Positions 8,544 through 43,835 of a DNA stretch of 64,000 bases are shown here, in pieces (positions within the stretch are counted from its first letter, which is position 1; the number at the start of each line of letters is the position of its first letter). Location of the stretch: positions 16,988,001 to 17,052,000 of the forward strand of contig OX485804.1 of NCBI GenBank assembly GCA_950295325.1. The letters run 5' to 3'. The position numbers and the translations under genes were made by a program. The notes beneath the pieces are model-generated. The model did no database searches and had not been told where the DNA came from. It saw only the letters and a program-made list of their open reading frames with translations. Source of the stretch: Polytrichum commune (Eukaryota > Streptophyta > Polytrichopsida > Polytrichales > Polytrichaceae).

Positions 8544-8900
8544 ATTATATTCACTAAAACTAAATATGGTATCTAGTGTCACTTACTATTCAAAATTATG
8601 CAATGCTATATCTATTTACTGTATATCTCATATTCAACCAAAAAACATTAATTTGGTTGTTTGAACATTACGGAACATTAACAACTTTACTTGATAAAAA
8701 ATCACACAATAGGAAGAAAAAAAATAGCATTGTGTAAATCCAAATAGTAAATGACACTAATTGTCATATATAGTGTACCTCTTTATTTATGTAAGGCTAT
8801 TAGTTTGTGTGTGGGATGATGTGGGGGGGGGGGGGGGGAGGGAGAGATAAAAATTAAAATATAAATTGGAACGGCCAATGATAGAATGTAAGTAGGGAGT
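8544..8900 (+). repeat. Composite repeat R1, copy 2, with a poly-G tract
   Basis: The module at about 8552-8777 carries the TATCTAGTGTCACTTACT end and the inverted AGTAAATGACACTA end. The tail follows from 8800 (GTTTGTGTGTGGGATGATG, AAATTGGAACGGCCAATGAT). A run of 16 G sits at 8823-8838 in the tail, where the other copies have G/A-rich sequence. Confidence 0.6.
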
Positions 8901-9929
8901 TCAAAGTCAATTGAATTCAATGTTGAGGGGCTTGGACCTTCCTAGTGATAACATCGCTTACGTACTCCATTGAAATGCCCACATTGGACTTGTGATCATA
9001 GACTAGTGCACCAAATCTCGAAAACGTCCACTATTCCACATTCTTCATGCTACTGCTCATGAATGTTAAGTACTGTTCTCCCTCTTTAGTATGACACGTT
9101 TGGGAAACAAAAAAAAGTCGTATTATCGAGGTGTCGTCTTCTCATTAATTTGGCAAATGGCGTAAAGTTGTCGTATTATTGAGGGAATTCATATGAAAAC
9201 ATAAGTACATTTATGAGCTTAAAAATATATACAATGAGTTTAAGCAATATAGATGGTATGAAATAATAACTTATAATTCCAAATAAATACAAATATTCTC
9301 AAGAACTCTTGAAATAGGAGTCCAAAGACCTATGGTGTAGCCTACCCAAGTTAGCAGTTGTCATCTTATCTAAATTCTTTACTAACTTTTGAAAACTAGT
9401 AATTTCATTAACACCAAAATATAAAAAGTTCTCTAATAAGAAACTAGATGATAATGATGCATGACGTTTAGCATCAAGATATTGGTGATACTATATGACC
9501 CATGCACAAGAGCTCTAGATTGTTCTATCTAATTTCTGACATAAATTTATAGTTATCTAAAGTTCATTTAGTTTCATCCACATTACTTATGTAATGTCCA
9601 CATTCAACCACATACAATCACTAAGGAACAAACTTATGAGTGAGAAAAGCAAGCAAGCCAAGAGCTATGCTTTTGGAGAGAGCCAATAAAGCCATGCATA
9701 ATATAATACAATATAATACAATATAATATAAATGAAAGCGCTTGGGAAGTAGTAGTTGAGATATTGATTATAAGAAGTTATCAAAACAAATGACCATGTT
9801 GTAAAGTTACCTTTAAAGGCCACAAGCAACGGATATCAATTGTTATAGATATGACAACAATGGCGATGAAGTAAAGTTGATAAAGGATGGCATGGCCATG
9901 CTCACCATATCACTTTGACCACACACACA
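8901..9929. other. Gene-free stretch with a patch shared with 34.0 kb
   Basis: About 8900-9080 resembles 34000-34170 (both contain GAATTCAAT, GTGATAACAT, CCCACATTGGACT and CATTCTTCATGCTACT). This is either an upstream part of the cysteine synthase segmental duplication or a separate dispersed repeat. 9080-9930 is AT-rich with a short ATATAATACA repeat near 9705-9730. No gene was seen. Confidence 0.45.
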
Positions 9930-10310
9930 TGGGCTACTTGAGCAGTGAGTCCTTCCCCCAACTTTCTCTACTCCCTTCTTAATACACCTTCTATCATTGG
10001 TTGTTCCAATTTACTTTCTTGCATTTACGGTGTCCTTCCCTCCTCTCCCATTTACCCACCCACAAACAAACTACACTAAATATTCACTCACTATTTGGAT
10101 TTACACAACGCTATATCTTTTTATTGTTGATGCAACCTTTTACTAAGTAAAGTTGTTAATGTTCTATAATGTCTAAACAACCAATTTAACATTTGTTGAT
10201 AAAATATAAGATATATAATAAACAAATATAGCATTTTGTTATTCCAAATAGTAAGTGACACTAAATTTCACATTTAGTGTAATAGCCTTACATGAACATA
10301 TAGGTACATT
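9930..10310 (-). repeat. Composite repeat R1, copy 3, inverted
   Basis: In reverse complement it shows the same order as the copies at 8140 and 8544. The tail occupies 9930-10070 (ATCATTGGTTGTTCCAATTT on the plus strand) and the module 10071-10281, between CTACACTAAATA and a diverged AGTGT end. Copies 1 and 3 therefore make a large inverted repeat about 2.1 kb across. Confidence 0.65.
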
Positions 10311-10535
10311 GGTTGTAATAGAGGACATGTAGGGTCCCATTCGTGGCCCATCACATGCAAGTGGGCACCAACATCCACTACATGCAAAAACATAGTACTT
10401 GTTGGCAAGGTTTGTAGCTAAGAATGGAGATTCAAAAACCCATGTCCTCCGACAAGATTGGACTATGCGATAAAAATGTATCGAGCGTTAGGAGGTTCAA
10501 TAGTTTACGCAATTGGTACATGTCTTCTGATTCCC

Positions 10536-10593
<58 letters not shown>
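10536..10593. repeat. (GA)n microsatellite, ~58 bp
   Basis: Uninterrupted GA dinucleotide run. A short open frame that crosses it encodes only Arg-Glu repeats and is not considered a gene. Confidence 0.95.
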
Positions 10594-10596
<3 letters not shown>

Positions 10597-10903
10597 TCTT
10601 CTCTTGAACTTCCTATAAGCTTTTCACTTCCACTTTGAATTTTCAAACTTGAACTATTGATAATTCATATGGCTTGTATATGCTGACTCGACAAGATAAA
10701 TCCCAATGTTGGCAATTTGCAAGTGGAGTTGGAAGTGTCCTCAATAGGGTCATGTTGTTATTGCATGTGAAACGTCATGGTAAGGTGCAATAAACTCGCT
10801 ACCATAGACATGCACTTTGGTAATTTTGCAAAACGTCAAATCTTACTTGCCACTAGAAATTCCATCTTGAAGTCCTTAAGTTCTCTCAAAATCAGACATC
10901 TCC

Positions 10904-10976
10904 TCCGTTGTAGTCTAGATGGTTAGGATACTCGGCTCTCACCCGAGCGACCCGGGTTCGAGTCCCGGCAACGGAA
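10904..10976 (+). tRNA. tRNA-Glu (anticodon CTC)
   Basis: A full cloverleaf can be drawn. The acceptor stem TCCGTTG (10904-10910) pairs with CAACGGA (10969-10975), with A at 10976 as discriminator. The D arm follows, then the anticodon stem CTCGG/CCGAG around the loop CTCTCAC, with anticodon CTC at 10938-10940. The T arm is GTTCGAGTCC between paired CCCGG/CCGGG. There is no intron and CCA is not encoded, as in nuclear tRNA genes. The internal promoter boxes are intact (B box GGTTCGAGTCC). Its duplicate is not apparent in the 34-37 kb region. Confidence 0.95.
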
Positions 10977-11109
10977 GCTCCCGAGGAAATGATTAGACTA
11001 CCTTTTTCTGAGAATTTATTGACAAAAAGTGAAATTGGCGCATTGTGCTTGGCCCCAATGCCATCACAAAACTTTGTGGGGGAACCGATGAAATTTGGCA
11101 GGAAAGCCA

Positions 11110-11460
11110 CATCAACATTGCTTCATTTTTGGGGACTTTGGATCCAAAATTTAACTCTTGACACATAGAATCGCTCCATTTTGGAGTTTCTTTGGTGTTG
11201 GACCCTAGTGCAAATCCACCCTTAGCACATCAAAAGAGCTCAAGCACACTAAAAGCAATAGGTTTCTAAAGAACAAGAGATTCGACCAGGTGTTCAAACT
11301 TTACAAACTACTCCACTCTTATTTAAATGTGACCACAATTGGGAGAACCTCAATTTTCCATTAGGAAATCAGCAAGAAGTGCACTTCTGATTACCATAAG
11401 TAACTTAAGGGGGTCTGATGATTGACGATGCTTCATGATAGATTTGTTGATGCACCACAA
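11110..11460. repeat. Upstream part of duplicated block A, with dispersed-repeat similarity
   Basis: 11110-11240 matches 35790-35930 and also 56255-56400 (shared words GGACCCTAGTG, GAATCGCTCCATTTTGGAGT, CCACCCTTAG), so this part is a dispersed repeat. 11278-11460 matches 36369-36555, co-linear with the second cysteine synthase copy. It forms the distal upstream flank of copy A. Confidence 0.55.
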
Positions 11461-11598
11461 GTTTTGAGAGTACTCGTGTTGAGAGTTGGGTCTAGCTTTT
11501 TGGAGATTACAAATTCAGAATGATGTTCGTAGCACATCGTTGGAATTCAGATTGCATTGCATGTGATCAGCGGAGCAACTAGGCGACATTGATCGGCA

Positions 11599-14500
11599 AT
11601 GGCGACACCTTCGGGAGCAGCAGTTCTGGTGGAGAAACTATCCTTGCAAGATGGACCGAAACCCCGGCAGCTCAAGATTTGTCGCGGGGTGGAGGAGATG
11701 ATTGGCGGCACACCGATGGTGGAAGTGACAAGCATCCTCAAAGCTGATGGTGCGGTGGCAAGAGTGGTGGCCAAGATGGAGTGTCTTCAACCCGGCGGAT
11801 CTGTTAAAGACCGCATCGTACTCCCGTGAGATTTTGCATCGCCAGAACCCGTACTAGTCTCTTCTTCGTCCATTATGATGCCGATTTGTGCAATTACTGT
11901 ACTGCGACTGTCGTGATTAATTCCCTCTATGCTTTGTACATTTCTTATCATATTAGGATGAAAAGCTCACCAATTGCAGCATGTTACTAGTTGCCAAAGA
12001 CCACATCGTACTCCCGGGAGGTGCATCATTGTAACCCTCGTGTCTTCTTTGTCCGTTTTGCAATTTGTGCACTGCGATTGTGACCGTTCCCTCGGTGTTT
12101 CTTCCATTCCTGCTCTCTTTAGACTGAAAGTTCACCAATTGCAGCATGTTAGTAGATGTGAAATAGTACATCGCACTCCCCGGAGACGCATTGTTCAAAT
12201 TCTCGTGTCTTCTTCGTCTATTTTGGCTTTGGTCAGATTTGTAGGACTTGCGATTGTGGCCATTCCCTCAGTGTTTCTTAGCTTCCTGTGCTCTTTAGAC
12301 TGAAAGCTTCATCCATCCAATGCAGCATAGGACTAGATGTCAAAGACTCAAAGACGCATCGTACTCCCGTGAGAGATGTGGCATCACAAGCCCTCGCGTC
12401 TTGTTCGTCCAGTATGTGATTTTTGCAATTTCTAAACTGCGATTGTCGCAATTTCCCTCGATTCCTGCATTCCTTCTCTCTTTAGATGAAAACCTCACTA
12501 GATGCAGCATGACAGTAAATGTCAAAGGCCGCATCGTGCTCCCGTGAGATGCATCAGAAAACCTCGTCTTCTTTGTCCATTATGCGATTTGTGCAATTTT
12601 TGCAACTCAATTGTCGTAATTCCCTCGGCATTTCTTAAATTCCTGCTCTCTTTAAACTGAAAAAGGTCACAAAATGAAGCATCGCACTCCCGTGAGATGC
12701 ATCATTACAAACTCTCGTGTCGTCTTCGTTTATTATGCGATTTGTACAATTTGCAATTGTAGCAATTCCCTTGACATTTCTTACATTCCTGCTCTCTTTA
12801 CACTGAAAAAGTTGACCAAATGCAGCATGTTACTAGATGCCGAAGAAAAGGGGCTCATAACCCCGGGGAAGACAGTGCTGATTGAACCGACGAGTGGGAA
12901 TACGGGTGTGGCACTCGCCATGGTGGCCAGACGGAGAGGATACCGATGCATCCTCGTGATGCCGGAGTATTACTCCTTGGAACGCCGAATTCTCTTGCGT
13001 GCTTTAGGTGCTGAAGTTATTATAACAGGTTAGTTTTCGGTGTTTGAGCATTCTTCCTTACATATCGATCCATCACTTAACTCATTCAAGAGCCTTTCCT
13101 GTACTGAAGGGCCAGCCACACAAAGCTTGAGCTCAGCTTGAGCTTGCAAATGTGATGGGCCAAGTTGAAAGCATTTGGACCCTTACATGTGCCTAAAATT
13201 GTGGAGCTTAGATCCTTCTTATTTTGGATTTTGAATTGATTTTCAAGATCAAGCCCGAACTTGAATTTGTAGTCATCGGACTTGACATGACTACAAGCTC
13301 GACTTCGGGCTTAAACTTGAAAATCAATTTAAGAAAAAGCGCGGAACGACCTTGAGACAAAGCTCTATCGTCTTTGACACATGTAAGGGCCCAAATTCTT
13401 TTACCTTGGCCTACCGAATTTGCAAACTTGAGCTCAACTTGTGCGTGGCAAATCCATGACACTAAGATGGAGCACTGTATTCCAATTCAAGTTAGCCGAG
13501 TTGAAGGATTTTCCAACTTTTGTTTCTGACGATTGTGTGATTCGTCCTGCATTGGAAGAGCAGAGGGAGCGAAAGGACTCCCCGAGTTGTTCAGAGTATT
13601 GGACGAGTTGCTAAAAATCACACCGAACTCCCACATGCTCAGCCAGTTTCAAAATCCGGAAAACCCTAATGCTCATTTCCGCACTACTGGTGAGGCTCAT
13701 GACCAAACACTGGTTCCTAAAGCATTCATATCTTCAACTTGATATTGAAGATGAGACTATGATGCGAATATAAATTCCTTTCCGCAGGACCGGAAATATG
13801 GGAGGCGACTTCGGGGGAAGTCGACATCTTAGTGGCCGGCATTGGGACTGGAGGGACCGTCACCGGTACAGGCCGGTACCTGAAGAGCAGGAATGCCAAT
13901 GTGCAAGTCGTTGGGGTTGAGCCTGCTGAAAGTGCAATTCTGTCAGGTTTTGCTAATTTCTCCAAAACTTCCACACATTGATGGTCGGATGAAATCTCTA
14001 CATGGTAGGGGGTGCCAATGTGAGATAGGGTTGTTTCTAAAAATGGTGGCACTAGAATCAGAGAGAAAAACCAATCTTCTACTGGTCGTCGGTTGTTTTG
14101 ATCATGTGAACCACGAGGAGGAAGCTCCACTTGCAGGTGAACATGAACTGCTCATGTGGATAATTGTCTGGAACGAGTAGGGAAAATGATGACTCGCAAC
14201 TAGGTTAGAATTGGCAACACTTAGATGCTTAGAAATGGAAGGCGATTGTGTGCATGCATATAAGAGAGAAACCTTCTTCAAGAGGACTTCTCCTTTGCAC
14301 TAAGGTATAAGTGCCCATTGTGGACACTTTGAGCACTACTCCCTTACCTAACTAAGACAAATTATCCAATGTTTTGTGTGGATTACCAATTATGTTATGA
14401 GCACAATAACATTAAGATCACATGAATCAAACCATACCTTACTTCTTGAGAGATGTTCAAGTCACAAACCTCATTTGACCCTTCCTAGCTATACGGGCCC

Positions 14501-16387
14501 CCCAAAAAATGGACAGTGTTTGTTGACATTTTGTCTCCTTCAACCACTGAACTGTGTTATTAGACCTTAGAATAACACAGTCAATATTCATGAAGTACGT
14601 ACAGTAATCTACCGCTTAAGTGCGCACCCATTCAAGTAGGCATCCCAGTTAAGTGCGCATTTTTTTCGACAAAACTCATGGTTCATATTTTATTGTTTGA
14701 ACATGTCATGTAGAGTCATTTGTCACGAATGCTTGAATTTTTTACACTCAACATTCAATGTCAGTTTGTTAACGTTTTACTTAAACGTCTCAAACGATCG
14801 TCGCAGTTCATCATACATCTATCCAACTTCCGTTTGAGCATCGGAGTAAAGCAATTGGTTGTTGATGTCGAGGACAATGATGTGTAGGGCTTCAAAACCC
14901 TTGAAGTCAGTAGCACTTTCAGATTCAACAAATGTCTAGATAGGCTTGATTTCGTCATCGATAGGTGGTTCTTCTTCAATTTGAATTGTTTCCAGAAATT
15001 CTTCAACGTCCTCCAGCATAACAACACAATATTCTTTGTTGTTTGCATCATCGATATCTAACAAACTGCTCATTTCTTTTGGTTCGATGGAGATCTACAA
15101 AGTACGCACCTGCCAACTAAGTGCGCACCAATGGCTTTGGTTCAAAGTGCGTACTTAAGCGGGAGATTACTGTAGTTGCCCACTTTGAGGGGAAAATAGG
15201 TGTCAGAATTGGGGCCACTGATAGAATTGAGTGCTTCTACCTTATTGCAATCACAAGTTTTCACTTGAGCCATGTGACTGAGGAGTACTTGACTTTTGTC
15301 ATGACTTGGATGCCTTGGCTTTTTCTTTTTCTTTTCACTATATCTTTTTGGCATGGGAGAGGGCAATGTGCATTCTCTGGTTTCATTCTATAGATTCTTG
15401 TGGTTCATTGTTCTTCATTCCATGGCTGCTAACCATCATCACATGGATGCTTGTGCAGGAGGCCAGCCAGGAAAACATAGCATACAAGGCATGGGCGCTG
15501 GATTTATTCCTGACGTTTTAGATGTGAAGATACTGGATAGGGTGATCGCAGTGCACAGTGATGAGGCAATGGAGATGTCAAGACGACTGCAGACTGAAGA
15601 TGGCCTCCTTGTTGGCATGTCCTCTGGCGCCGCATTTGCTGCTGCCCTCAAGGTATGGAAGTTGAGCTAATGCTTCTTTCTGAGTACTACACCTCTCCAA
15701 ACCCATCTCTGATTAGAAGGAATCTGCTTCAAGAATCAGATTTTGCATCTCAGTTGCTTGAACTCAAAAGATAGAAACAGTGAACCTCTTTCTTTCAACC
15801 TAACCCTGAAGATAAAATTTGAGCTCATGGTGTTTCTGTGAGTACTACACCTATCCAAATTCATCTATGATTAGAATTTGCTTCAAGGAATTAGTTTCTG
15901 CATCTCAGTTGCTTACAGTCAGAAAACCGTGCAATCAAGGTGAGATGTTACATACTGCCAACCTCTTTCTTCCAGCCTAATATTCCTGTTCAAAATGAAT
16001 ACGTTGAATTCTCCTTGAAAAACAGTTTGACTCTTTGTAAACGCATGGTAGAAGTATGTCGAGAACGCTTAAGTTCGACATCGTTAGATTTTGCAGGTCT
16101 TGTGGATTTCTTACTCCTCAGAACAAACAGGTTGAGCTTCGTACTGCATAGTTTTAAGTAGCACCAAATTTTCTGACCATGGGAATTGCATTCCATGTCC
16201 TTCATGTGCTGTCTACTTGCAACTAAGAGTTTTTCCTGACTGGCTATTTGGACAGATGGCAAAGGAGCCAGCAAATGCAGGTAAACTCATCGTGGTGGTG
16301 TTTCCAAGCGCAGCAGAGCGTTATCTCAGTACAGCTCTTTTTGATTCTCTGAAAAAAGAATGCGAGACTATGAGTACCTACGAATAA
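11599..16387 (+). CDS. Cysteine synthase (O-acetylserine (thiol)lyase) family, copy A
   Basis: A PLP enzyme of the plant OAS-TL family, which joins O-acetylserine and sulfide to form cysteine. Six coding exons: 11599-11825, 12826-13028, 13564-13689, 13788-13946, 15459-15652 and 16256-16387. All have GT-AG borders and they join in frame to 346 aa, near the usual length of cytosolic forms (~325). Visible landmarks are the PLP lysine K70 in GGSVKDRI, the substrate loop PTSGNTG (97-103), the phosphate-binding loop GTGGT (205-209), the GMGAGF loop (249-254) and SSGAA (293-297). No transit peptide is evident, so a cytosolic location is inferred. The start is the ATG at 11599, because an upstream ATG is cut off by a TGA. 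Oddities: IGGTP replaces the usual IGNTP, and intron 1 carries the cassette array. A cyanoalanine synthase or desulfhydrase activity cannot be excluded. It is a duplicate of the gene at 37542. Confidence 0.88.
11826..12825 (+). repeat. Intron 1 of copy A: five tandem micro-exon-like cassettes
   Basis: The intron is a tandem array with a ~146-182 bp period. Each unit has the order acceptor GCAG, cassette, donor-like GTGAG, spacer. Cassettes: 11980-12015 (36 nt, donor GT changed to GG), 12145-12180 (36 nt, in-frame TAG, donor lost), 12326-12368 (43 nt, donor intact, would shift frame), 12508-12543 (36 nt, open, both sites intact) and 12680-12691 (12 nt remnant, acceptor GAAG, donor intact). Each full cassette begins like exon 2 (CATGTTACTAGATG) and ends like exon 1 (AAAGACCGCATCGTACTCCC). 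Skipping all of them joins exon 1 to exon 2 and gives [16 protein letters not shown], which aligns without gaps to the family. Confidence 0.85.
13115..13449. repeat. Foldback (inverted-repeat) element in intron 2 of copy A
   Basis: The two halves are reverse complements over roughly 160 bp each. For example GATTTTCAAGATCAAGCCCG on the left mirrors CGGGCTTAAACTTGAAAATC on the right, and TTGGACCCTTACATGTG mirrors CACATGTAAGGGCCCAA. The centre lies near 13290. A related foldback sits at the same place in copy B, so it predates the duplication. Confidence 0.75.
14602..15172 (-). mobile_element. Pogo/Tigger-like (Tc1/mariner) non-autonomous element, 571 bp, in intron 4 of copy A
   Basis: The terminal inverted repeats start CAGTAATCTACCGCTTAAGT on the left and CAGTAATCTCCCGCTTAAGT on the right (reverse complement). 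They are flanked by the TA dinucleotides at 14600-14601 and 15173-15174. CAGT ends with TA target sites are typical of pogo/Emigrant-Lemi-like elements. Copy B has the unoccupied site (a single TA at 41029-41030), so both boundaries are confirmed. On the minus strand the interior gives a degenerate reading with two stops ([18 protein letters not shown] and more), which may be a transposase C-terminal remnant. Confidence 0.85.
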
Positions 16388-17268
16388 AACTAGGTGACTC
16401 GGCATGAAACATCCACAAACCACACATATAACCGGGCGATGAAAATACAGATGTATACATAATATATATAAAACACTAGCTGTTGATAATTGTAATGGTT
16501 GTTACTGCAGGGCCAAGAGGCTCTTGTAAAACTACGTTAATGACTAGCTCCTGAGTCATAGTGGTGATCCAAGCCCCAAATTGGTGCAATTGATGAAGAT
16601 ATCACAATTGTATCGTAGACCTAGGCTGCGAGGTCATGTCTGAAATGTGGATACAAATTATCAGGGTTTGTAAAAAACATTCCATTCTTGAAATTTCTGT
16701 CACCTCTTACAACCAGATGAAAATGCACATTTTTCATGAACATAATTTACACTTCCATGCATCTCCTGCAAAAAGCAAACAGCTAATATTTTGCTTCACT
16801 CACTACTGTACGTGCCTCTGAGGTGGAACATTTTGGTTGGATCGCATGAAATTCAGTACTTCCAGTAAACATCATATACTAATAGCTTACGCGAATCAAA
16901 TTCCAGGCTCTGGTCAAATACCATACTAATTGTTGAGTCTCATCTACATTATCCCAACTTCTTGAGGTCATTTTGTCTGGACCAGGTATACATAATTTCT
17001 CAAATACCTCCAATTGCGTGTGCTTGTTCAACATATAAGGTAATCTTCTGAGAAACACTCAATTTTCATGTTCACCAACTAGGACTTCTGTGTGATAGGT
17101 TATACCATAGATAATTTTTAGCGTTTTCTATCTCTGGTGCAGAATGATGATGTGGGCCACAAGCATTCACCAGCGGTCGGGAATTGCAGACAAAAATATC
17201 TGAAACAAACAGGAGCAGCATCTCTGCTTCAGCACACATCCACATGAATATTGTGCCGCCCCAAAATA
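16388..17268 (+). other. 3' flank of copy A, strongly conserved with copy B
   Basis: About 880 bp downstream of the stop codon align almost without gaps to 42236-43117, at a similarity close to that of the exons. The first few hundred bases are probably 3' UTR, but no clear polyadenylation site could be fixed. Small open frames here occur in both copies and show no family motif. Confidence 0.5.
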
Positions 17269-17491
17269 CTACACTGTTTATGGTATATAGTGTCACTTAC
17301 TCTTTGGAATTACGCAATGCAATAACTTCGTATTTAGGAACCCAATTCTTACTTTCAAAAGTTGAATAGGTTGTTCAGACATTATAGAACATAAAAGACT
17401 TTTTCTTGGTGAAATATGAAATTCTCAGTATTATTTATAGCACTGCGTAAATCTGAATAGTAAGTGACACTAAATACCATGACCAGTGTAG
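17269..17491. mobile_element. CTACACT-type foldback MITE downstream of copy A
   Basis: Left end CTACACTGTTTATGGTATAT followed by AGTGTCACTTACT. The right end, in reverse complement, is CTACACTGGTCATGGTATTT followed by AGTGTCACTTACT. TA flanks both sides (17267-17268 and 17492-17493), suggesting a TA target site. The same insertion is present downstream of copy B (43118-43323), so it predates the duplication. It is related to the module of composite repeat R1. Confidence 0.75.
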
Positions 17492-17563
17492 TACACATCT
17501 TTTATGACTACTAAGCTTAGATGGCCCTGCACTCTCTTACAATCATGAGTAACTCACCAGGTA

Positions 17564-17939
17564 AGGCACCACGGGCCTTGGCTTGGTGGTTAGGGCTCAT
17601 GGCCCCCAATGAGGAGGTTATGGGTTCTATTCCCCATGCCGGCGTGGTGCTCACCACCTTAGTCCACCCAACTATGGTGGGGGGTCCTTGGACCTTGTTG
17701 TATGGGTACCTCAAAGCCCTTTGGGGGGATACCATGTCCGGTATCTTCAAGGAACTAGTGGCTGGCTAGGAACTAGTATAGTGTGTCACTATAGTGCACA
17801 TCCTCAAAAGGGGAGAGTAGTATTGTCCCAATGTCCCCTTGTCAAGTAGGCATCGGGTCATTGGCATTACGAACGGACACTTTATTCACGCCGGCCCCTT
17901 GCTAAAAAGGGACTGGAGTTTCTATCTATCTATCTATCT
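17564..17939 (+). mobile_element. tRNA-derived SINE (376 bp) with perfect 13 bp target duplication
   Basis: Flanked by identical AACTCACCAGGTA at 17551-17563 and 17940-17952. Near the 5' end lie pol III promoter boxes: an A-box-like TGGCTTGGTGG at 17579-17589 and a B-box-like GGTTCTATTCC at 17623-17633. The 3' end is a short tandem repeat (TCTA)n. These features define a tRNA-derived SINE. The perfect target duplication implies a fairly recent insertion. It is absent from the equivalent place next to copy B. Confidence 0.88.
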
Positions 17940-18113
17940 AACTCACCAGGTATTCCCTCGTATAATGGTATAGTGTAAGGTAAGTGGGCCTTAAATGGAC
18001 ACTTTTAGCTCTGCACACAGTTCTGGTAGGAAATGAAAAACGAAATTAGTGTGAGGTGATTGACAAATGCAAATGGGTGCTGTAGCTATTTTCCTCATGG
18101 TTTCCAGGGCTTA

Positions 18114-18635
18114 TGCCCCCTTCCCACCTGACTTTAGTTAAGACCCAAAGTATTTCCTAAAAACCGGGTAAAGCTCCCTCGGTTATAGCGGAGGCATCCG
18201 ACTATCCCAATGCACCTACAAGAACTTGCTCCGGAGATTTTCAAGTAGCTTTTAGTTAAGTAGCTTTCACACATGTTCATGGTTTTATCTACCAAGCAAT
18301 GACATGTTGGGTAGTTTTTGTCCCATCCCCAAATGCCTTACTACTCACCTATCTTACCATCGGTTTTTGTTAATGGGGCTCCTCGTGCCCTCATAGCTAA
18401 GACTAAAAAGCAACCAATCAAAAGGATGGGAGGCGACACTTTTAAAGCTCCTATATTCTTGCCTCATGTTTAGGTACCGATGGGAGGGTCGGTGGTTGAG
18501 GCTTAAAACCTCCACTTTTAAGCCATGCCACATCATTTGCCAACTAGGCTCGGCACTAGACAATGTCGATGGTGTGAGGGCCGGTTTGTTAGAACCAACT
18601 TTTAGTCTTAGCTAAAGTCGGGTGGGAAGGGGGCA
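18114..18635. mobile_element. PIF/Harbinger-like MITE (522 bp) with TTA target duplication
   Basis: The inverted ends are TGCCCCCTTCCCACCTGACT on the left and TGCCCCCTTCCCACCCGACT on the right (reverse complement), and the match continues for over 30 bp. TTA flanks at 18111-18113 and 18636-18638. No transposase inside. The end sequence differs from the MITE at 5687, so it is a different family of the same superfamily. Confidence 0.8.
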
Positions 18636-18639
18636 TTAT

Positions 18640-18800
18640 ATGGGTATTTTGTTCATTATCAAAGTGAGGATTCTTAAGCTTGTTATATGGTTATATATAT
18701 GTGTCTCCCAAGTATGTTGATTATATAATGGTTGGTAAGTTTTGAGCATGTAGTCCCATCTCTTTTAAACACATGTCTTTTTGGTGTTTCATTCTTAGAT
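18640..18800 (-). repeat. Dispersed repeat R2, inverted fragment
   Basis: The reverse complement contains CACCAAAAAGACATGTGTTT and AAAGAGATGGGACTACATGC, matching 63140-63190 closely. 18800-19180 holds no recognised feature except a lone CTACACT-type end near 19021-19055. Confidence 0.5.
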
Positions 18801-19179
18801 CCACATCTACCACCCAACACTCAAATATAGGCGTTTGATGAACAAATGTACCGAGTAAGGTATGCATACAAAATGTACCATTGGCGGGCACTCTATGTGG
18901 CCGAGGATTTGTGCCACTCAAGTAAGTTGAAGTTGAAAACGTTGGGGGCTTACTCTTCATAGTTCAAATATTACTTTTTGAAGCATATTGTACCCTAGAA
19001 TTAGCATAAGGGACCTGGAACTACACTATTTATGGTATTTAGTGACACGTACATTATTTGCAAAGGGCCTAAACTAGATGCCTACGGGTCTCAAAGTGTC
19101 ACATGTACTAATTGTCAATATGATGTTATTCATCAATATAAGTAACTTCTTGAAGTGAAAAAATATATACATTATGACA

Positions 19180-19705
19180 TTTGGTTTAGGACATTGGGAT
19201 CCTTGAGATGATAGTTTTGCGTTCTAGTAGACGTGGCGAAGATATTATTGAGCATACTAATGCCAAGCGCCATATGTTTATATTTTAGTATGGAGAGAAA
19301 GATATTCTAGAGGATACTAATGCCAAGTGTCATTTGTGTACACTTTTAGTCAATTTGTAGACCATTGTGTAAAACAAGTTTACACCTCATAACATTATTG
19401 AACATACTCATGCCAAAATATTAGAAAGCGCAATTGGACATCAACTATCACGAGGTGACACTAATGGTGAAGTTGGTGATCATTACTGTAACCTATATTA
19501 CCCCTCAAAATAGGGTAAGTGACACTATTACGCATGTGATATGCAATACCGTAAACAAATGAACACCTTTTACACCTAATACTATGGTTTACTATTTGGA
19601 GTTATATGTTCCTATAGCTTTATATCGATGATCTCAACATTTGACGTAGATAACATAAATAAATAGGTATATGCATGTCAAGGAACATAACATAACATAA
19701 CATAA
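19180..19705. repeat. Right end of duplicated block A (matches 43400-43835)
   Basis: Shares long stretches with the second copy (GACATTGGGATCCTT, GATAGTTTTGCGT, CATTGTGTAAAACAAGT, GCTTTATATCGATGAT, AAATAAATAGGTATATGCA). Similarity stops at AAGGAACATAAC, where A continues with an ACATA repeat and then gypsy sequence. About 1.6 kb lies between 17557 and this match in A but is absent in B. Confidence 0.7.
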
Positions 19706-33999: not shown

Positions 34000-35789
34000 G
34001 GAATTCAAAGTCAATTGAATTCAATATTGAGAGGCTCAAACCTCGTAGTGATAACATTGCTTATGTGTTCCAATGAAACGCCCACATTGGACTCGTGATC
34101 ATAGGCTAGTACACAAAATCTCGGCAACTTCCACTATTCGGCATTCTTCATGCTACTAGTCAAAAAGGTTAAGTAGCATGTGCGTCATGTAGACGGCGGC
34201 CCGCCTCGAGTATCCTTGAATTGCTCCCAATTCCCAAAGCTATTGTTTCCTCTCTTCACGCACTTCTCAAAGGATTTGCAACACACTGTTATTGAGGTCG
34301 ACAAATTCAAAACATGCCCTCTGCGTGTGATGATAATAATAATAATAGTAGTAATAATATTCTAATGAGGAGGCTCGCATGACGAGGATAAATTGGTCAC
34401 TAGAACAAGTGTTTGGGGAGAATTTGAGCATAACCGGTGAAGATCCTAGCGTTTCCAACTCCAACCGGTTACGTGTTCACATCTTTCGGTTTCTCTTCAT
34501 TAATTTGAGGTATGTTCTATAGATTCCTTGAAAATGATTCGTAAAATTCTTGAGGTCTTGCACTTCAACCGGTTATTTCTCAAACTCAACCGGTTCATTT
34601 GTAACTAATCGCCGGTTCTCCCCAGACATTGTTTGGAACTAGTTCTTTGCTGCCTCTTGAAAGAATTTAAGGTTCACACACACACTTGCCAATGTTTCAA
34701 GAAAGCTACACTAAAATTGGTACATAAAATATATGATCCACCCTAAAGTTTTCACATCGATCCTTGATTGCACATTATTTGTCGACCCCCAATATTAAGC
34801 ATAACGGGTAATATATTTGTGGACCACACTAAGAGGTGGTCCTCACCAAAATCGTAATGAAGGACTGCAAGTTGCGTTCAATGATTTCCCGCTTTGAGGG
34901 ATGTGACTCAAACAAAGAAGTGGCCTAAGAGTGAATACAAGAACTATAAGAAATCAATATAGTGGTTCTTTGGAACAGTTTTGGTGTGAACCCAAGAAAG
35001 ACTATAGTGGGTTCTTCTTCTTCTTCTTCTTCTTCTAAATGATATTTAATATAAAGGTGAAAGGAAACCCAACAACACTCTAATTGATAGAGGTTCTCAA
35101 TATGATTGATACGTTCGAATGGAAATAAGCCCCAATTTTGTGTATAGACAATTCATTTGACTTTGCCCCAATTCACCTAAACTCAACGTATACTTAGCAT
35201 GTACTTCTAATTGTGCATTCTCCCTTTTTAACAATAACCCACAAATATATAGAGAAGAATATTATGTATAAGTGCCACATCATTGGAAAGGTGATTAACG
35301 TATGGTCTAACAAAAACAAGTAAAATCTACCTTCCTTCCATATTCCCTCCCTCCATTTCCTCCTTCATTGCATTTCTCTCCTCCTCCCTTTTCCTTCCTC
35401 CGTACCTTAATATTCATTCTTTGGATCTTCGCTTGCCCAATGTACATTGTGGTCAAGAAAGCTTAGCTAAGATCCAATAGTATGCTGACGTAATTTTGGT
35501 ACTTTGGTCACTCATCTTTGACAAATGGAGCCACGTTTTTGCAGGATCCCTTATCGAAACAAAAAGATGAATTGTTAAGTTAGGTCCGGTTGACCACTGC
35601 ACTGAATGAATATTATATTTAGTGTCATATGGCATTTTATGTGACTGCGGTGACTTTTCTAATGAATAGGTTTACAAAAAACTGTCATCTCAACTTACTT
35701 TAGTTCATCCACTTATGGTATATTATGTATCCTAACAATCCTGTGATGAATTCTTGTCATAAACGATTTAAATTTTGATGAAAAGTCAA
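34000..35789. other. Gene-free stretch with a patch shared with 8.9 kb
   Basis: 34000-34170 resembles 8900-9080. 34325-34360 holds an (ATA/GTA)n run, and 35009-35036 a (TTC)n run. 34440-34640 repeats the phrase CAACCGGTT several times. No gene was seen. Confidence 0.45.
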
Positions 35790-37417
35790 CACGACTTCAT
35801 TTTTTGTACTTTGGACTTGGACCCTAGTGTAAATTCTTTAAATCCGAAATTTTGCTCTTGACCCATAGAATCACTCTATTTTGGAGTTTCTTTGGCCTTG
35901 GACCCTGGTGGAAACCATCCTTAGCACATCAAACCAGGTCAAATACATCAAAAACAATATGTTTCTAATAGGCTTGTCTACCTCAAGCAAGTGATGGACA
36001 GATAACCAACGAGAGAAGAGTGGACAATGAGCTGTGGGAACAGTTTGTCATCCACCGACTCGAGTTGTTTATTGGACATAATTTTTATCAACTCATGAAC
36101 ATAATCTAACGGTTATATATGATATCTCATCACCATAGATAATTTTTTCTGTGACGAGTCATGATAAACCTTCTACTCTTGAATGAGCAATTGGTCATGG
36201 GAGTAAATATAGCACACTTCCTTGTCAATGACTCCATAATGTGCAATTTTTGCCCTTTAAGGTAATATGCAATTGTTATTTGTTTTTTTTCTTTCTTTCA
36301 TGAAACCCCTATATTTGATTAATGTGTGGTTGGATGAGGACCAAAGAACAAACTATCACGTGTTCAAAAGAGATTCGACCAGATGTTCAAACTTTAAAAA
36401 CCACTCCACTCTCAATTGTGAACACAATTGGGAGAACCTCAATATTCAATTAGGAAATCAACAAAACGTGCAATTCTGATAACCATAACTAAATTAAGGG
36501 AGGTTTGATGTTTGATGATGCTTCATGGTAGATTTGTTAATGCACCATGAGTTTTGTTGTGTAAATGTAATTGGTAAAAGTTGGAGAACGTGAAAAGCAC
36601 ACCGAATAACACCCATATACTTACCTTATTCGGTGCATAGTGGATTTGGTTTGACTTGGCCGGCACATGCCAAAGTGGATACTGCGAAAAGCAAATAAGT
36701 CAATGTCAACCTAGCTACGCCCCAATTCACATGGGGTCCCAAATTCCAAGTCCAAGTCCCAAGTCCCAAGTCCCACTCATATCAGCAATAACATGTCTTG
36801 AACATGGAGAACTCACTGCTAAGTTAGTTACAAATGAACTAGGTTGAGTTTGAGAAAGAACCGGTCCAAGTTCAAGACTTCGAAAAAAAATCGATCATTT
36901 TAGAGGAATCTATGGAACATATCTCCAATTAGAAAACCGAAAGATCATAACATGTAACCAATTGGACTTGGAAACACTACAATTTTGATTGATTGTGTCC
37001 AAAAATCTCCCCGGACATTCGTCAACAACTCCCGACATGGAGGAAAACAATATGTACGTTTGACAAATTTCATTTAATGTTCAACTTTGAATCCAAAGTG
37101 TCACATGACGTTCTCAAAAACAAAAATGAATGTCAATTGATATATCTACATTTTCTTCTACAACGCACCTCAATGTCACATGCCTAGTAGTATGTGTCAT
37201 TTCAATTTCTAATGTGTAATTCACATGGTATTTTCCTTCAAATTTGAAAATGTGCATGTCAATTGACATGCATTTCTTGTGTGTGCAAGTTTTTGCGTGT
37301 CCAAATGTCAAAAATACACGCTCGATGCAAAGCTTGAACCTCAAGAAACCATCAAAGTACACATTATATCCATTACAGTAAAAAAATGATTTTATTATAA
37401 AAACACTGTTGGCACTT
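35790..37417. repeat. Upstream part of duplicated block B, with an ~0.86 kb insertion
   Basis: 35790-35930 and 36369-36555 correspond to 11110-11240 and 11278-11460 beside copy A. From about 36556 to 37417 the sequence has no counterpart in A; homology resumes at GAGAGCTGGGTCTAGCTTTC. The inserted part is AT-rich with no coding motif, and neither inverted ends nor a convincing target duplication could be fixed. It places foreign DNA ~125 bp upstream of the copy B start codon. Confidence 0.6.
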
Positions 37418-37541
37418 ATCTCTGAGAGCTGGGTCTAGCTTTCTGGAGATTACAAATTCAGAATGATGTTCGTAGCACATCGTTGGAATTCAGATTGCAT
37501 TGCATGTGATCAGCGGAGCAACTAGGCGACATCGATCGGCA

Positions 37542-40500
37542 ATGGCGACACCTTCGGGAGCAGCAGTTCTGGTGGAGAAACTATCCTTGCAAGATGGACC
37601 GAAACCGCGGCAGAAGATATGTCGCGGTGTGGAGGAGATGATTGGCGGAACACCGATGGTGGAAGTGACAAACATCCTCAAAGCTGATGGTGCGGTGGCA
37701 AGAGTGGTGGCCAAGATGGAGTGTCTCCAACCCGGCGGATCGGTTAAAGACCGCATCGTACTCCCGTGAGATTTTGCATCGCCAGAACCCCTACCAGTCT
37801 CTTCTTCGTCCATTATGATGCGATTTGTGCAATTACTGTACTGCGACTGTCATGATTCCTTCCCTCCATGCTTTGTACATTTCTTATCATATTAGGCTGA
37901 AAATCTCACCAATTGCAGCATGTTACTAGTTGCCAAAGACCACATCGTACTCCCGGGAGGTGCATCATTGTAACCCTCGTGTCTTCTTTAATTTGTCCGC
38001 TTTGCAATTTGTGCAAATTTTGGACACTGCGATTGTGGCCGTTCCCTTGGTGTTTCTTACATTCCTGCTCTCTTTAGACTGAAAGTTCACCAATTGCAGC
38101 ATGTTAGTAGATGTAAAATACTACATCGCACTCCCTGGAGACGCATTGTTCAAATTCTCGTGTCTCCTTCGTCTATTTTGGCTTTGGTCAGATTTGTAGG
38201 ACTTGCGATTGTGGCCATTCCCTCAGTGTTTCTTAGCTTCCTGTGCTCTTTAGACTGAAAGCTTCATCCATCCAATGCAGCATGTGACTAGATGTCAAAG
38301 ACTCAAAGACGCATCGTACTCCCGTGAGAGATGTGGCATCACAAAATCTCATGACTATTTCGTCCATTTTGTGATTTGTAGCCATTCCCTCCGCGCTTCT
38401 TGCATTCCTGCTCTCTTTAGACTGAAAGTTTCACCAAATGCAGCATGTTACTAGATGTTGAATACCACATCGTATTACCCTGAGATGCATCGTTGCGATT
38501 TCTCGTGTCCTCTTCGTCCGCTTTGCAATTTGTGCAATTTTTCGACACTGCGATACGTTTCTTACATTTGTCTTCCCTTTAGGAAAGCTCACCAAATGCA
38601 GCATATTATTAGATATCAAAGATTGCATAGTACTCGCGTGAGATGTTGCATCCCAAACCCTCGTGTCTTCTTCGTTGATTTCTCAATTTGTGCAGATTTT
38701 TGACACTGCGATTGTCGCAATTCTCTCGGTGTTTCTTGCATCTCTGCTATTTAGCCTGAAAGCCTCGTCCATCTAATGCAGCATGTTATAAGATGTCAAA
38801 GACCGCATCGTACTCCTGTGAGATGTGGCATCACAAGCCCTCGCGTCTTGTTCGTCCAGTATGTGATTTGTGCAATTTCTAAACTGCGATTGTCGCAATT
38901 TCCCTCGATTCCTGCATTCCTTCTCTCTTTAGATTAAAACCTCACTAGATGCAGCATGACAGTAATTGTCAAAGGCCGCATTGTACTCCCGTGAGATGCA
39001 TCAGAAAACCTCGTCTTCTTTGTCCATTATGCGATTTGTGCAATTTTTGCAACTCAATTGTCGTAATTCCCTCGGCATTTCTTAAATTCCTCCTCTCTTT
39101 AAACTGAAAAAGGTCACAAAATGAAGCATCGCACTCCCGTGAGATGCATCATTACAATCTCTCGTGTCGTCTTCGTTTATTATGCGATTTGTGCAATTTT
39201 TGGACACTGCAATTGTAGCAATTCCCTTGACATTTCTTACATTCCTGCTCTCTTTACACTGAAAAAGTTGACCAAATGCAGCATGTTACTAGATGCCGAA
39301 GAAAAGGGGCTCATAACCCCGGGGAAGTCAGTGCTGATTGAACCGACGAGTGGGAATACGGGTGTGGCACTCGCCATGGTGGCCAGACGGAGAGGATACC
39401 GATGCATCCTCGTGATGCCGGAGTCTTTCTCCTTGGAACGCCGAATTCTCTTGCGTGCTTTAGGTGCTGAAGTTATTATAACAGGTTAGTTTTCGGTGTT
39501 TGAGCATTCTTCCTTACATATCGAACCATCACTTAACTCACTCAAGAGCCTTTCCTGTACTGAAGGGCCAGCCACACAAAGCTTGAGCTCAGCTTGAGCT
39601 TGCAAATGTGATGGGCCAAGTTGAAAGCATTTGGACCCTAACATGTGCCTAAATATGTGGAGCTTCGTTCCTTCTTATTTTGGATTTTGGATTTTGAATC
39701 GATTCCCAAGATCAAGCCGGAACTTGAACTTGTAGTCATCGGACTTGACTTGACTACAAGCTCAAGTTCGGGCTTAAACTTGAAAATCAATTTAAGAAAC
39801 AGCGCGGAACGACCTTGAGACAAAGCTCTATCGTCTTTGACACATGTAAGGGCCCAAATTCTTTTACCTTGACCTACCGAATTTGCAAGCTTGATGGAGC
39901 AGTGTTTTCCAATTCAAGTTAGCCGAGTTGAAGGATTTTCCAACTTTTGTTTTTGACGATTGTGTGATTCGTTCTGCATTGGAAGAGCAGAGGGAAAGAA
40001 AGGAATCCCCGAGGTGTTCAGAGTGTTGGACGAGTTGCTAAAAAACACGCCGAATTCCCACATGCTCGCCCAGTTTCAAAATCCGGAAAACCCTAATGCT
40101 CATTTCCGCACTACTGGTGAGTCACATGTCCAAACACTGGTTCCTAAAGCATTCATATCTTCAACTTGATATTGAAGATGAGACAATGATGCGAATATAA
40201 ATTCCTTCTCGCAGGACCGGAAATATGGGAGGCGACTTCGGGGGAAGTCGACATCTTAGTGGCCGGCATTGGGACTGGAGGGACCGTCACCGGTACAGGC
40301 CGGTACCTGAAGAGCAGGAATGCCAATGTGCAAGTCGTTGGGGTTGAGCCTGCTGAAAGTGCAATTCTGTCAGGTTTTGCTAAATTCTCCAAAACTTTCA
40401 CAAATTCATGGTCGCATGAAATCTCTACATGGTAGGGGGTGCCAATGTGAGATAGGGTTGTTTCTAAAAATGGTGGCACTAGAATCAGAGAGAAAAAGAA

Positions 40501-42235
40501 TCTTCTACTTATCGTCGGTTGTTTTGATCATGTGAACCACGAGGAGGAAGCTCCACTTGCAGGTGAACCTGAACTGCTCATGTGGATAATTGTCTGGAAC
40601 GAGTAGGGAAAATGATGACTCGCAACTAGGTTAGAATTGGCAACAGTTAGATGCTTAGAAATGGAAGGCGATTGTGTGCATGCATATAAGAGAGAAATCT
40701 TCTTCAAGAGGACTTCTCCTTTGCACTAAGGTATAAGTGCTCATTGTGGACACTTTGAGCACTACTCCCTTACATAACCAAGACAAATTATCCAATGTTT
40801 TGTGTGGATTACCAATTATGTTATGAGCACAACAACATTACGATCACATGAATCAGACCATACCTTATTTTTATAGAGATGTTCAAGTCACAGACCTTAT
40901 TTGACCCTTCCTAGCTACATAGGCCCCCCAAAAAATGGACAGTGTTTGTTGACATTTTGTCTCCTTCAACCAATGAGCTGTGTAATTAGTCCTTAAAATA
41001 ACACAATTAATGTTTAAGTTTAAGTACGTAGTTCCCCACTTTGGGGCGGAAATAGGTGTCAGAATTGGGGCCACTGATGGAATTGAGCGCTTCTACCTTA
41101 GTGCAATCACAAGTTTTCACTTGAGCCATGTCACTGAGGAGTACTTGACTTTTGTCAGGACGTGGATGCCTTGGCTTTTTCTTTTTCTTTTCGCTATATC
41201 TTTTTGGCATGGGAGAGGGCAATGTGAATTCTCTGGTTCCATTCTATAGCTTCTTGTGGTTCATTGTTCTTCATTCCATGGCTACTAATCATCATCACAT
41301 GGGTGCTTGTGTAGGAGGCAAGCCAGGAAAACATAGCATACAAGGCATAGGCTCTGGATTTATTCCTGAAGCTTTAGATGTGAAGATACTGGATAGGGTG
41401 ATCACGGTGCACAGTGATGAGGCAATGGAGATGTCAAGACGACTGCAGACCGAAGATGGCCTCCTTGTTGGCATCTCATCTGGCGCCGCATTTGCTGCTG
41501 CCCTCAAGGTATGGCTAATGCTTTTTTCTGAGTACTACACCTCTCCAAACCCATCTCTGATTAGAAGGAATCTGCTTCAAGAATCAGATTCTGCATCTCA
41601 GTTGCTTGAACTCAAAAGATAGAAACAGTGAACCTCTTTCTTTCAACCTAACCCTGAAGATAAAATTTGAGCTCATGGTGTTTCTGTGAGTACTACACCT
41701 CTCCAAATTCATCTATGATTAGAATTTGCTTCAACGAATCAGTATCTGTATCTGAGTTGCTCTCAGTCAGAAAATGGTGCAATCAAGGTGAGATGTTACA
41801 TACAGCCAACCTCTTTCTTCCAGCCTAATATTCCTGTTCAAAAGAAATACATTGAATTCTCCTTGAAAAACAGCTTGACTCTTTGTAAACGCATGGTAGA
41901 AGTATGTCGAGAACGTTTAAGTTCCACATCATTAGATTTTGCAGGTCTTGTGGATTTCTTACTCCTCAGAACAAGCAGGTTGAGCTTCGTACTGCATAGT
42001 TTTAAGTAGCACCAAATTTTCTGACCATGGGAATTGCATTTCATGTCCTTCATGTGCTGTCTACTTGCAACTAAGAGTTTTTCCTGACTGGCTATTTGGA
42101 CAGATGGCAAAGGAGCCAGCAAATGCAGGTAAACTCATCGTGGTGGTGTTTCCAAGCGCAGCAGAGCGTTATCTCAGTACAGCTCTTTTTGATTCTCTGA
42201 AAAAGGAATGCGAGACCATGAGTACCTACCAATAA
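37542..42235 (+). CDS. Cysteine synthase (O-acetylserine (thiol)lyase) family, copy B
   Basis: Same structure as copy A: coding exons 37542-37765, 39282-39484, 39991-40116, 40215-40373, 41315-41508 and 42104-42235, joining in frame to 345 aa. Exon lengths are identical to A except exon 1, which is 3 nt shorter (one Leu fewer). By my reading the proteins differ at 17 aligned residues. None falls in the PLP-lysine motif (K69), PTSGNTG, GTGGT or SSGAA. Differences cluster in exons 3 and 5, where B is often nearer the plant consensus (GIGSGF, VGISSG, KNTPN). Exon 5 uses a TGTAG acceptor where A has TGCAG. An in-frame ATG 42 nt upstream (37500) exists only in B; the conserved start is preferred. 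Both copies look functional from sequence alone. Confidence 0.88.
37766..39281 (+). repeat. Intron 1 of copy B: eight tandem micro-exon-like cassettes
   Basis: Same array as in copy A but longer. Cassettes: 37919-37954 (donor lost), 38100-38135 (open, donor lost), 38281-38323 (43 nt, frame-shifting, donor intact), 38444-38479 (open, donor CT), 38602-38637 (36 nt, open, both sites intact), 38782-38817 (in-frame TAA, donor intact), 38955-38990 (36 nt, open, both sites intact) and 39127-39138 (12 nt remnant). The fourth to sixth are absent from copy A. There, sequence like the start of the third cassette is followed by spacer like that after the sixth, as expected from unequal recombination within the array. 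Confidence 0.85.
39571..39896. repeat. Foldback element in intron 2 of copy B
   Basis: Counterpart of the element at 13115-13449. The central inverted halves remain (CTTGTAGTCATCGGACTTGA against TGACTACAAGCTCAAGTTCG), but the outer right arm is partly deleted near 39890. Confidence 0.7.
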
Positions 42236-43117
42236 AACTAGGTGACTCGGCATGAAACATCCACAAACCACACATATAACCAGGTGATGAAAATACAGAT
42301 GTATACATAATATATATAAAACACTAGCTGTTGATAACTGTAATGGTTGTTACTGCAAGGCCAAGAGGCTCTTGTAGAACTACGTTAATGACTAGCTCCT
42401 GAGTTATAGTGGTGATCCAAGCCCCAAATTGGTGCAATTGATGAAGATATCACAATTGTATCGTAGACCTAGGCTGTGAGGTCATGTCTAAAATGTGGAT
42501 ACAAATTATCAGGGTTTGTAAAAAACATTCCACTCTTGAAATTTCTGTCACCTCTTACAACCAGATGAAAATGCACATTTTTCATGAACATAATTTACAC
42601 TTCCATGCATCTCCTGCAAAAAGCAAACAGCTAATATTTTGCTTCACTCACTACTGTACGTGCCTCTGAGGTGGAACATTTTGGTTGGATCGCATGAAAT
42701 TCAGTACTTCCAGTAAACATCATATACTAATAGCTTACGAGAATCAAAATTCCAGGCTCTGGTCAAATACCATACTAATTGTTGAGTCTCATCTACATTA
42801 TCCCGACTTCTTGAGGTCATTTTGTCTGGACCAGGTATACATAATTTCTCAAATGCCTCCAATTGCGTGTGCTTGTTCAACATATAAGGTAATCTTCTGA
42901 GAAACACTCAATTTTCATGTTCACCAACTAGGACTTCTGTGTGATAGGTTATACCATAGATAGATTTCAACGTTTTCTATCTCTGGTGCAGAATGATGAT
43001 GTGGGCCACAAGCATTCACCAGCGGTCGGGAATTGCAGACAAAAATATCTGAAACAAACAGGAGCAGCATCTCTGCTTCAGCACACATCCACATGAATAT
43101 TGTGCCGCCCCAAAATA
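42236..43117 (+). other. 3' flank of copy B, conserved with copy A
   Basis: Aligns along its whole length with 16388-17268. It probably contains the 3' UTR. No independent gene is supported. Confidence 0.5.
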
Positions 43118-43323
43118 CTACACTGTTTATGGTATATAGTGTCACTTACTCTTTGGAATTAGGCAATGCAATAACTTGGTATTTAGAGTCAATTTTTTCC
43201 TTTCAAAAGTTGAATAGGTTGTTCAGACATTATAGAACATAAAAGGCTTTGCTTGGTAAAATATGGAATTCTCACTGTGTAAATTTGAATAGTAAGTGAC
43301 ACTGAATACCATAACCCATGTAG
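43118..43323. mobile_element. CTACACT-type foldback MITE downstream of copy B
   Basis: Counterpart of 17269-17491, with the same left end CTACACTGTTTATGGTATAT and a slightly diverged right end; some of the middle has been lost. Confidence 0.7.
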
Positions 43324-43399
43324 TACACATCTTTTATGACTACTAAGCTTAGATGGCCCTGCACTCGTTTACAATCGTGAGTAACTCATTACGTTCGAC

Positions 43400-43835
43400 A
43401 TTGGGATCCTTAAGATGATAGTTTTGCGTGTAGTATGCATGGGGAAGATATTATTGAGCATATTGATGCCAAGTGTCGTTGGTGTACACTTTTAGCCAAC
43501 TTGTAGACCATTGTGTAAAACAAGTATACACCTCATAAAATTATTGAGCATACCCATGGCAAAATGTAAGAAAGCACAGTTGAACATCAACTGTCATGAG
43601 GTGAGAAGTTGGTGATCATTATTATAACCTAGATTACGTCTCAAAATAGAGTAAGTGACATTATTACGCATGTGATACTAAATACCATAAACAAATGTAC
43701 ACCTTTTACACCTAATTTTGTGGTTTACCATTTGGAATTACTTGTTGCCATAGCTTTATATCGATGATATCAATCTTTGACCTAGATAACACAAATAAAT
43801 AGGTATATGCACATCAAGGAACATAAAATAACTTT
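43400..43835. repeat. Right end of duplicated block B
   Basis: Matches 19180-19705 and ends at AAGGAACATAA. Here it follows the MITE flank almost directly, which shows that the 1.6 kb with the SINE and PIF-like MITE is extra in A. 43836-44200 holds no recognised feature. Confidence 0.7.

Follow-up and report, generated by a model that had tools for sequence, protein, structure and literature searches.

Introduction

How does a single intron come to hold as many as nine complete introns, and does the cell make any use of the short exons that stand between them? The question is raised by a 64,000-nucleotide stretch of the genome of the moss Polytrichum commune (GenBank assembly GCA_950295325.1, contig OX485804.1, positions 16,988,001 to 17,052,000 of the forward strand), which we call the window and within which coordinates are given. 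Two copies of a gene for cysteine synthase, here genes A and B, lie in the window on the forward strand, and intron 1 of each is a tandem array of complete introns separated by small cassettes derived from the flanking exons. In our estimation there is a probability of roughly 0.8 that the locus records one founding tandem duplication, the amplification and decay of the resulting unit, a later duplication of the gene and the loss of three units from copy A, and that its cassettes are today mostly skipped. In what follows we set out the anatomy and origin of the array, its restriction to this locus, its history and its predicted splicing, and we weigh the alternative readings where the evidence bears on them.

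Anatomy of the array

Intron 1 of gene A (11826 to 12825) follows exon 1 (11599 to 11825), which ends in TTAAAGACCGCATCGTACTCCC before the intron opens with GTGAG, and precedes exon 2 (12826 to 13028), which begins CATGTTACTAGATG. Complete unit introns stand end to end within it, with cassettes of 12-43 nucleotides (nt) between them. Gene A has six such unit introns of 129-154 nt, beginning with unit intron 0 (11826 to 11979; 154 nt, GTGAG to TTGCAG) and closing with unit intron 5 (12692 to 12825; 134 nt, GTGAG to ATGCAG), which adjoins exon 2. Its five cassettes measure, in order, 36, 36, 43, 36 and 12 nt. Cassette A1 (11980 to 12015) has an open frame and a lost donor (GGGAG), while A2 (12145 to 12180) carries an in-frame TAG and has lost its donor as well (CGGAG). 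The 43-nt cassette A3 (12326 to 12368) shifts the frame, keeps AG and GTGAG, and joins a cassette of the type of B3 in gene B to an intron of the type of B6. Cassette A4 (12508 to 12543) has an open frame and both splice sites and would add 12 residues, and A5 (12680 to 12691) is a 12-nt, in-frame remnant with acceptor AAG and donor GTGAG. When gene A is compared with itself, the best off-diagonal match is several units long (E = 3e-90).

The second gene has the longer array. Intron 1 of gene B (37766 to 39281) comprises nine unit introns of 120-153 nt and eight cassettes of 36, 36, 43, 36, 36, 36, 36 and 12 nt, the 43-nt one at 38281 and the 12-nt one at 39127. Two of these are full-length and intact, with an open frame and both splice sites: B5 (38602 to 38637) and B7 (38955 to 38990), the latter being the counterpart of A4. 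B6 (38782 to 38817) has both sites and an in-frame TAA. The AG acceptor is kept in all 13 cassettes of the two genes (as AAG in A5 and B8) and the GT donor in three of five in A and five of eight in B; in-frame stops occur in A2, B3 and B6, and A3 and B3 shift the frame. Only 3/13 cassettes (A4, B5 and B7) unite full length, both splice sites and an open frame.

A first, sequence-only reading of gene A had described five repeats, each with an AG acceptor, a frame-preserving cassette of 36 nt when full, and a GTGAG-like donor. The array, its coordinates and its five acceptors are as that reading had them, and so is the intact state of A4. The description was too generous with respect to donors, present as GT in three cassettes only, and to size, with three cassettes of 36 nt and the others of 43 nt (frame broken) and 12 nt. 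Frame preservation holds for the lengths of 4/5 cassettes in A and 7/8 in B, a much larger share than the three of 13 that are full-length, open and flanked by both sites. The residues that A4 would add also differ from the consensus block that had been proposed.

Exon origin of the cassettes

Sequences that match the last 22 nt of exon 1 at 16/22 or better appear four times in intron 1 of A and seven times in that of B, against 0.01 and 0.004 matches per shuffled intron, respectively. Likewise, matches to the first 14 nt of exon 2, at 11/14 or better, number three in A and six in B, against 0.05 and 0.10 in shuffles (500 dinucleotide shuffles in each case). The cassettes are chimeras of the start of exon 2 and the end of exon 1. 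On the whole, the nine 36-nt cassettes resemble exon 2 at positions 1-14 and exon 1 at positions 15-36; positions 8 and 24 are mixed, and the T and G at positions 13-14 are common to both exons, forming a 2-nt overlap (TG). Each unit intron is bounded at its splice boundaries by an exon-2-like head and an exon-1-like tail. That all nine full cassettes have one common exon 2/exon 1 junction points to one founding duplication, and the fact that both exons place the shared junction G at the first codon position indicates that this duplication was in frame. The converse derivation, in which the exon ends would come from the repeat, was considered and rejected on the grounds that relatives retain the exon sequence, in which KDR[I/V/L] stands at an unchanged distance from the DAE region.

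The sequence-only reading had proposed a tandem duplication that starts inside exon 1, crosses intron 1 and ends in exon 2. These exon-derived units and their single junction support it, with one adjustment: the 14 nt of exon 2 stand, and the contribution of exon 1 is better set at 22 nt with the 2-nt overlap than at about 27 nt. That reading had also named units devoid of exon-derived sequence as a contrary outcome; the exon-derived parts proved to be present far above the shuffled level.

The sequence of events that we propose begins with a tandem duplication that would have taken in the last 22 nt of exon 1, the complete intron of about 140 nt and the first 14 nt of exon 2. Joined at the TG overlap and in frame by chance, the two exon pieces would have formed a chimeric 36-nt exon, and the gene would have gained a second intron. 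The number of introns may then have grown to at least nine by unequal exchange between the copies. The splicing machinery would treat the array mostly as a single intron, from exon 1 to exon 2, and the cassettes, released from use, would decay no faster and no slower than the surrounding intron. A later duplication would have copied the gene together with its array, and copy A would subsequently have lost three units through exchange at a 17-nt identity.

The two genes and their relatives

The remaining exons of gene A lie at 13564-13689, 13788-13946, 15459-15652 and 16256-16387, and the gene encodes a 346-residue cysteine synthase. Gene B spans 37542-42235, with exon 1 at 37542-37765 and exons 2-6 at 39282-39484, 39991-40116, 40215-40373, 41315-41508 and 42104-42235; its product is a 345-residue copy. 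Both models were built from splice signals and homology. The reading frames of both genes are open, and the two proteins are identical at 328 of 345 aligned residues, with 0.025 nonsynonymous and 0.057 synonymous substitutions per site (dN and dS) between the coding sequences. A match to the PALP family (PF00291, 244.5 bits) and near-full-length similarity to PDB 4aec (410 bits, covering residues 9-343) mark the enzyme as plant cysteine synthase (O-acetylserine thiol-lyase). The top protein database match is the 337-residue record P0001 (90% identity), which is identical to A at 304/338 positions and to B at 308/337. Of the named records, the mosses Ceratodon (74%) and Sphagnum (64-69%) reach the highest identities across most of the protein length; by score, some longer angiosperm records (P0002-P0004 and P0006; 56-59% identity) rank above or among the moss records.

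Each gene sits inside one copy of a more extensive direct duplication, about 10 kb long (8896-19696 and 34000-43832), which is interrupted by unalike stretches and whose pieces outside the array are 83-95% identical. The copies differ in intron 4, which in A is 1512 nt long and ends in CAG (15456-15458), and in B is 941 nt long and ends in TAG (41312-41314). Intron 2 of A contains a long imperfect inverted repeat (13130-13439; 80-nt arms at 75% identity, inner arms of 46 nt at 85%) with a counterpart in B at 39571-39891, perhaps a small foldback element.

Restriction to the locus

Unit ends that coincide exactly with splice sites invite the thought of a mobile element, an introner or one of another kind, that entered the same place again and again. 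We consider this extremely improbable. The units run head to tail and carry pieces of both flanking exons, and when a 173-nt unit was searched against the whole genome (408 Mb), 8/8 matches fell inside the two arrays, in a search that scored the best candidates, skipped very common words and recovered 8/15 known units, so that it may have passed over strongly diverged copies in other places. On this result we rejected a dispersed repeat or introner, and the spread of the unit through unrelated parts of the genome, which the sequence-only reading had named as a contrary outcome, was not found within the same reach. A 1601-nt query holding the whole A array adds only the exons of the nearest paralogue, on contig C7.

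That paralogue has an intron of 862 nt at the identical position, without an array: none was detected by Tandem Repeats Finder, and the best match to the units is 14 nt long. Exon-derived parts are not detectable in it either, the best exon 1 match being 12/22 (equalled in 287 of 300 shuffles) and the best exon 2 match 10/14 (reached by 101 of 300). The paralogue is accordingly a control without the array but with repeats of its own, among them a 43-nt inverted pair. On contig C1, a family member that is further removed (49% identity) reads through the intron position unbroken (residues 27-142).

History of the arrays

The two arrays can be aligned unit by unit. Units 0, 1 and 2 of A pair with the same units of B, while units 4 and 5 of A pair with units 7 and 8, and the order of units is common to both arrays. 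The remaining unit of A is a hybrid: cassette A3 differs from B3 at 2/43 positions, and its intron differs from that of B6 at 2/137 and from that of B3 at 20/116, with the switch point inside a 17-nt identity. By sequence and unit pairing, a three-unit stretch of about 492 nt in B (38328 to 38819) is missing in A. B intron units 3 and 6 share, close to where they start, the 17-nt identity GAGATGTGGCATCACAA in which the ends of this stretch fall, and their exact place within it is ambiguous. The unit pairing together with the hybrid A3, B3-like in its cassette and B6-like in its intron, places this three-unit loss in A. Expansion in B was considered instead and rejected, since B intron units 4 and 5 are only 67-79% identical to the six A units and so have no close counterpart in A.

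Unit bodies have diverged from one another by about 29% (Jukes-Cantor distance, JC, 0.37), compared with 4.7% (JC 0.048) between introns 2-5 of A and B, which makes the array roughly seven times older than the gene duplication. The same figures bear on the chance that the array is an artefact of assembly. Tandem repeats are hard to assemble, but units that differ this much from each other and keep a common order in two arrays are a poor substrate for such an error, and we regard an artefact as scarcely credible. Paired intron 1 units of A and B differ by less than the other introns do, at 2.3% (19/834) against 4.7% (100/2132; Fisher p 0.002), and sequence exchange between the two arrays would explain this lower divergence.

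Cassette constraint and predicted splicing

If the cassettes were used as protein-coding exons, one would look for conservation above that of the intron around them. Among the units of B (the sets take in the true exon ends), mean pairwise identity is 0.72 in the exon 1-derived part, 0.71 in the exon 2-derived part and 0.71 in the intron body, with 0.83 at the donor and 0.76 over the last 30 nt; in A the corresponding values are 0.73, 0.66, 0.71, 0.80 and 0.73. Between A and B, cassettes differ at 7/163 positions and the paired units of intron 1 around them at 19/834 (Fisher p 0.17), and cassette divergence is therefore not lower. With conservation no better than that of the intron body, the cassettes show no coding constraint, and selection on them was rejected as an explanation on this ground.

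Nor do homologues carry an insert. In a panel of the best 120 of 8000 scored homologues, 107 have the KDR-DAE motif with six residues between, 12 more, judged by eye, agree with it in spacing but vary in their letters, and the last, P0020, begins after the junction; an insert at the exon 1/exon 2 junction occurs in none of the 119 with a readable junction. A search of proteins for the 12-residue insert gave no hit among 85 candidates at E <= 0.001, with a 41-residue query that weak matches could escape. P0001 crosses the exon 1-exon 2 junction without an insert and has no intron through to its end; intron-free on contigs of at most 1641 bases, it probably derives from RNA.

These observations must be set against a reading in which the cassettes are alternative microexons, with A4, B5 and B7, as well as the 12-nt A5 and B8, included in some transcripts to yield enzyme variants with 4-28 extra residues beside the lysine motif that binds pyridoxal phosphate (PLP). 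Three full-length cassettes do retain both sites and an open frame, cassette donors match the exon 1 donor over GTGAGA, and the frame stays open in 4/8 inclusion sets in A and 8/32 in B, the cassette-free set being counted in each. Yet beyond the missing constraint and the absence of inserts noted above, A4 and B7 differ at 3/36 positions, above the introns that adjoin them (2/137 and 1/136), and an insert would presumably lengthen the chain right beside the active-site lysine. We therefore hold this reading to be unlikely. The protein repeat variants envisaged by the sequence-only reading are no more than a possibility: sites are intact in three full-length and two 12-nt cassettes, but several others are broken, and neither sequence conservation nor the homologues speak for their use.

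A second possibility is that inclusion of the frame-breaking A3, B3 and B6 sends transcripts to decay, so that the array tunes the output of the enzyme. All three retain both splice sites and break the frame, and all 13 acceptors are kept, an outcome to which a crude neutral model, with units taken as independent, gives a chance of about 0.06 for the eight of B. Against this, the cassettes are not conserved beyond the intron body, donors decay as neutrality would predict (5/8 kept in B, 5.6 expected), and the number of units has changed between A and B while both frames stayed open. Such a control appears improbable, more so than inclusion as microexons. Slightly less improbable, in our judgment, and still quite doubtful, is a heritable splicing dial, in which the number and state of units would set cassette inclusion and the gain or loss of units (nine in B, six in A) would alter enzyme output or give variants with a 12-residue repeat beside the PLP lysine.

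Skipping, by comparison, is likely to be the main outcome of splicing, as the lack of cassette constraint, the several broken cassettes and the absence of an insert in homologues together suggest. The frames of A and B are open, although inclusion of A3, B3 or B6 would shift or stop them; since the set with all usable cassettes breaks the frame, both genes would be destroyed if every usable site were always used. The earlier expectation that most transcripts skip the cassettes is thus supported, if indirectly. Low-level inclusion may still occur. To judge by these patterns, the cassettes look mostly like decaying leftovers and not like a working device for protein variants.

Several points weigh against the account of a single duplication followed by decay and skipping. 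At cassette position 16, 6/9 full cassettes match exon 2 (C) and only 1/9 matches exon 1 (T), and the junction could sit slightly elsewhere, or exon 1 could have changed at this position since. In the C7 paralogue, the intron contains a single diverged pair of direct repeats, each about 70 nt long (contig C7, L006 3547-3613 and 3703-3770, reverse strand), whose starts are 156 nt apart, near the unit length, and whose score of 50 exceeds the maximum of 27 in 300 shuffles; the pair may stem from an unrelated duplication or be an early trace of a duplication-prone intron. The complete retention of acceptors in B (8/8) is a weak hint of something beyond pure decay. Over CCC/GTGAGA (the stroke marks the splice boundary), the donors of A3-A5 are identical to the exon 1 donor, and introns of 120-154 nt, the size range of the units, are spliced well by plants, so that the splice sites themselves are compatible with inclusion. 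Lastly, P0001 comes from another sample, and its gene may be one without an array.

Other features of the window

A gene for tRNA-Glu (CTC) lies at 10904-10976, about 620 nt upstream of the start codon of gene A. An open frame at 29385-30002 matches the DDE_1 endonuclease family (28.5 bits) and is probably a piece of a transposon, and another at 60740-61132 matches the sodium/bile acid symporter family (SBF, 76.4 bits).

Relation to known systems and significance

An earlier study of within-gene duplication as a multiplier of exon-intron structure reportedly dealt mostly with duplications on the scale of exons, unlike the 36-nt chimeric and probably skipped exon described here. Tandem genomic duplication is a recognized class of intron gain, in which a local duplication supplies the splice sites of the new intron (PMC3443670; PMC2891723), and the arrays of genes A and B, as tandem copies of adjacent gene sequence with splice signals included and with a paralogue that lacks the array at the same intron position, fit intron multiplication by this route. 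In the classical form it is an exonic segment containing AGGT that is duplicated, whereas here an existing intron has been multiplied together with both exon edges (PMC3443670; PMC2891723). A plant precedent is the gene for RNA-dependent RNA polymerase of potato, where tandem duplication of part of an intron and the neighbouring exon created an extra intron with inherited splice signals (PMC4974935); the moss arrays differ in comprising the whole intron and both exon edges in up to nine copies, in being old and decaying, and in being known from DNA alone.

Other systems resemble the arrays in part. Introners are likewise repeated spliceosomal introns of the same sequence (PMC9860276), but they have copies at many unlinked genes, and within the reach of the genome search the present units occur at a single locus and its duplicate. 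Schistosome micro-exon genes also place short exons between introns (PMC10526429), though here the cassettes occupy one intron of an ordinary enzyme gene and do not exhibit coding constraint. Stwintrons are complex introns with more than one possible order of splicing, as these are, but in a stwintron the inner intron interrupts a splice element of the outer one (PMC8469720), an arrangement not seen in the moss arrays, where every intron is complete and a cassette separates it from the next. Among the titles and abstract beginnings consulted, which cover part of the literature, we found no description of the same anatomy, and we do not claim that none exists. With respect to this portion of the literature, what is new is the repeated form that runs from exon edge to exon edge, in two copies of a gene; the duplication mechanism itself has precedents (PMC3443670; PMC2891723; PMC4974935).

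In Polytrichum, a single locus thus displays the steps of intron multiplication, from the founding junction through in-register amplification and the decay of splice sites to the loss of three units in one copy. Because several of its cassettes have splice sites like real ones, the array is also a natural test of whether plants choose the nearest or the outermost splice site.
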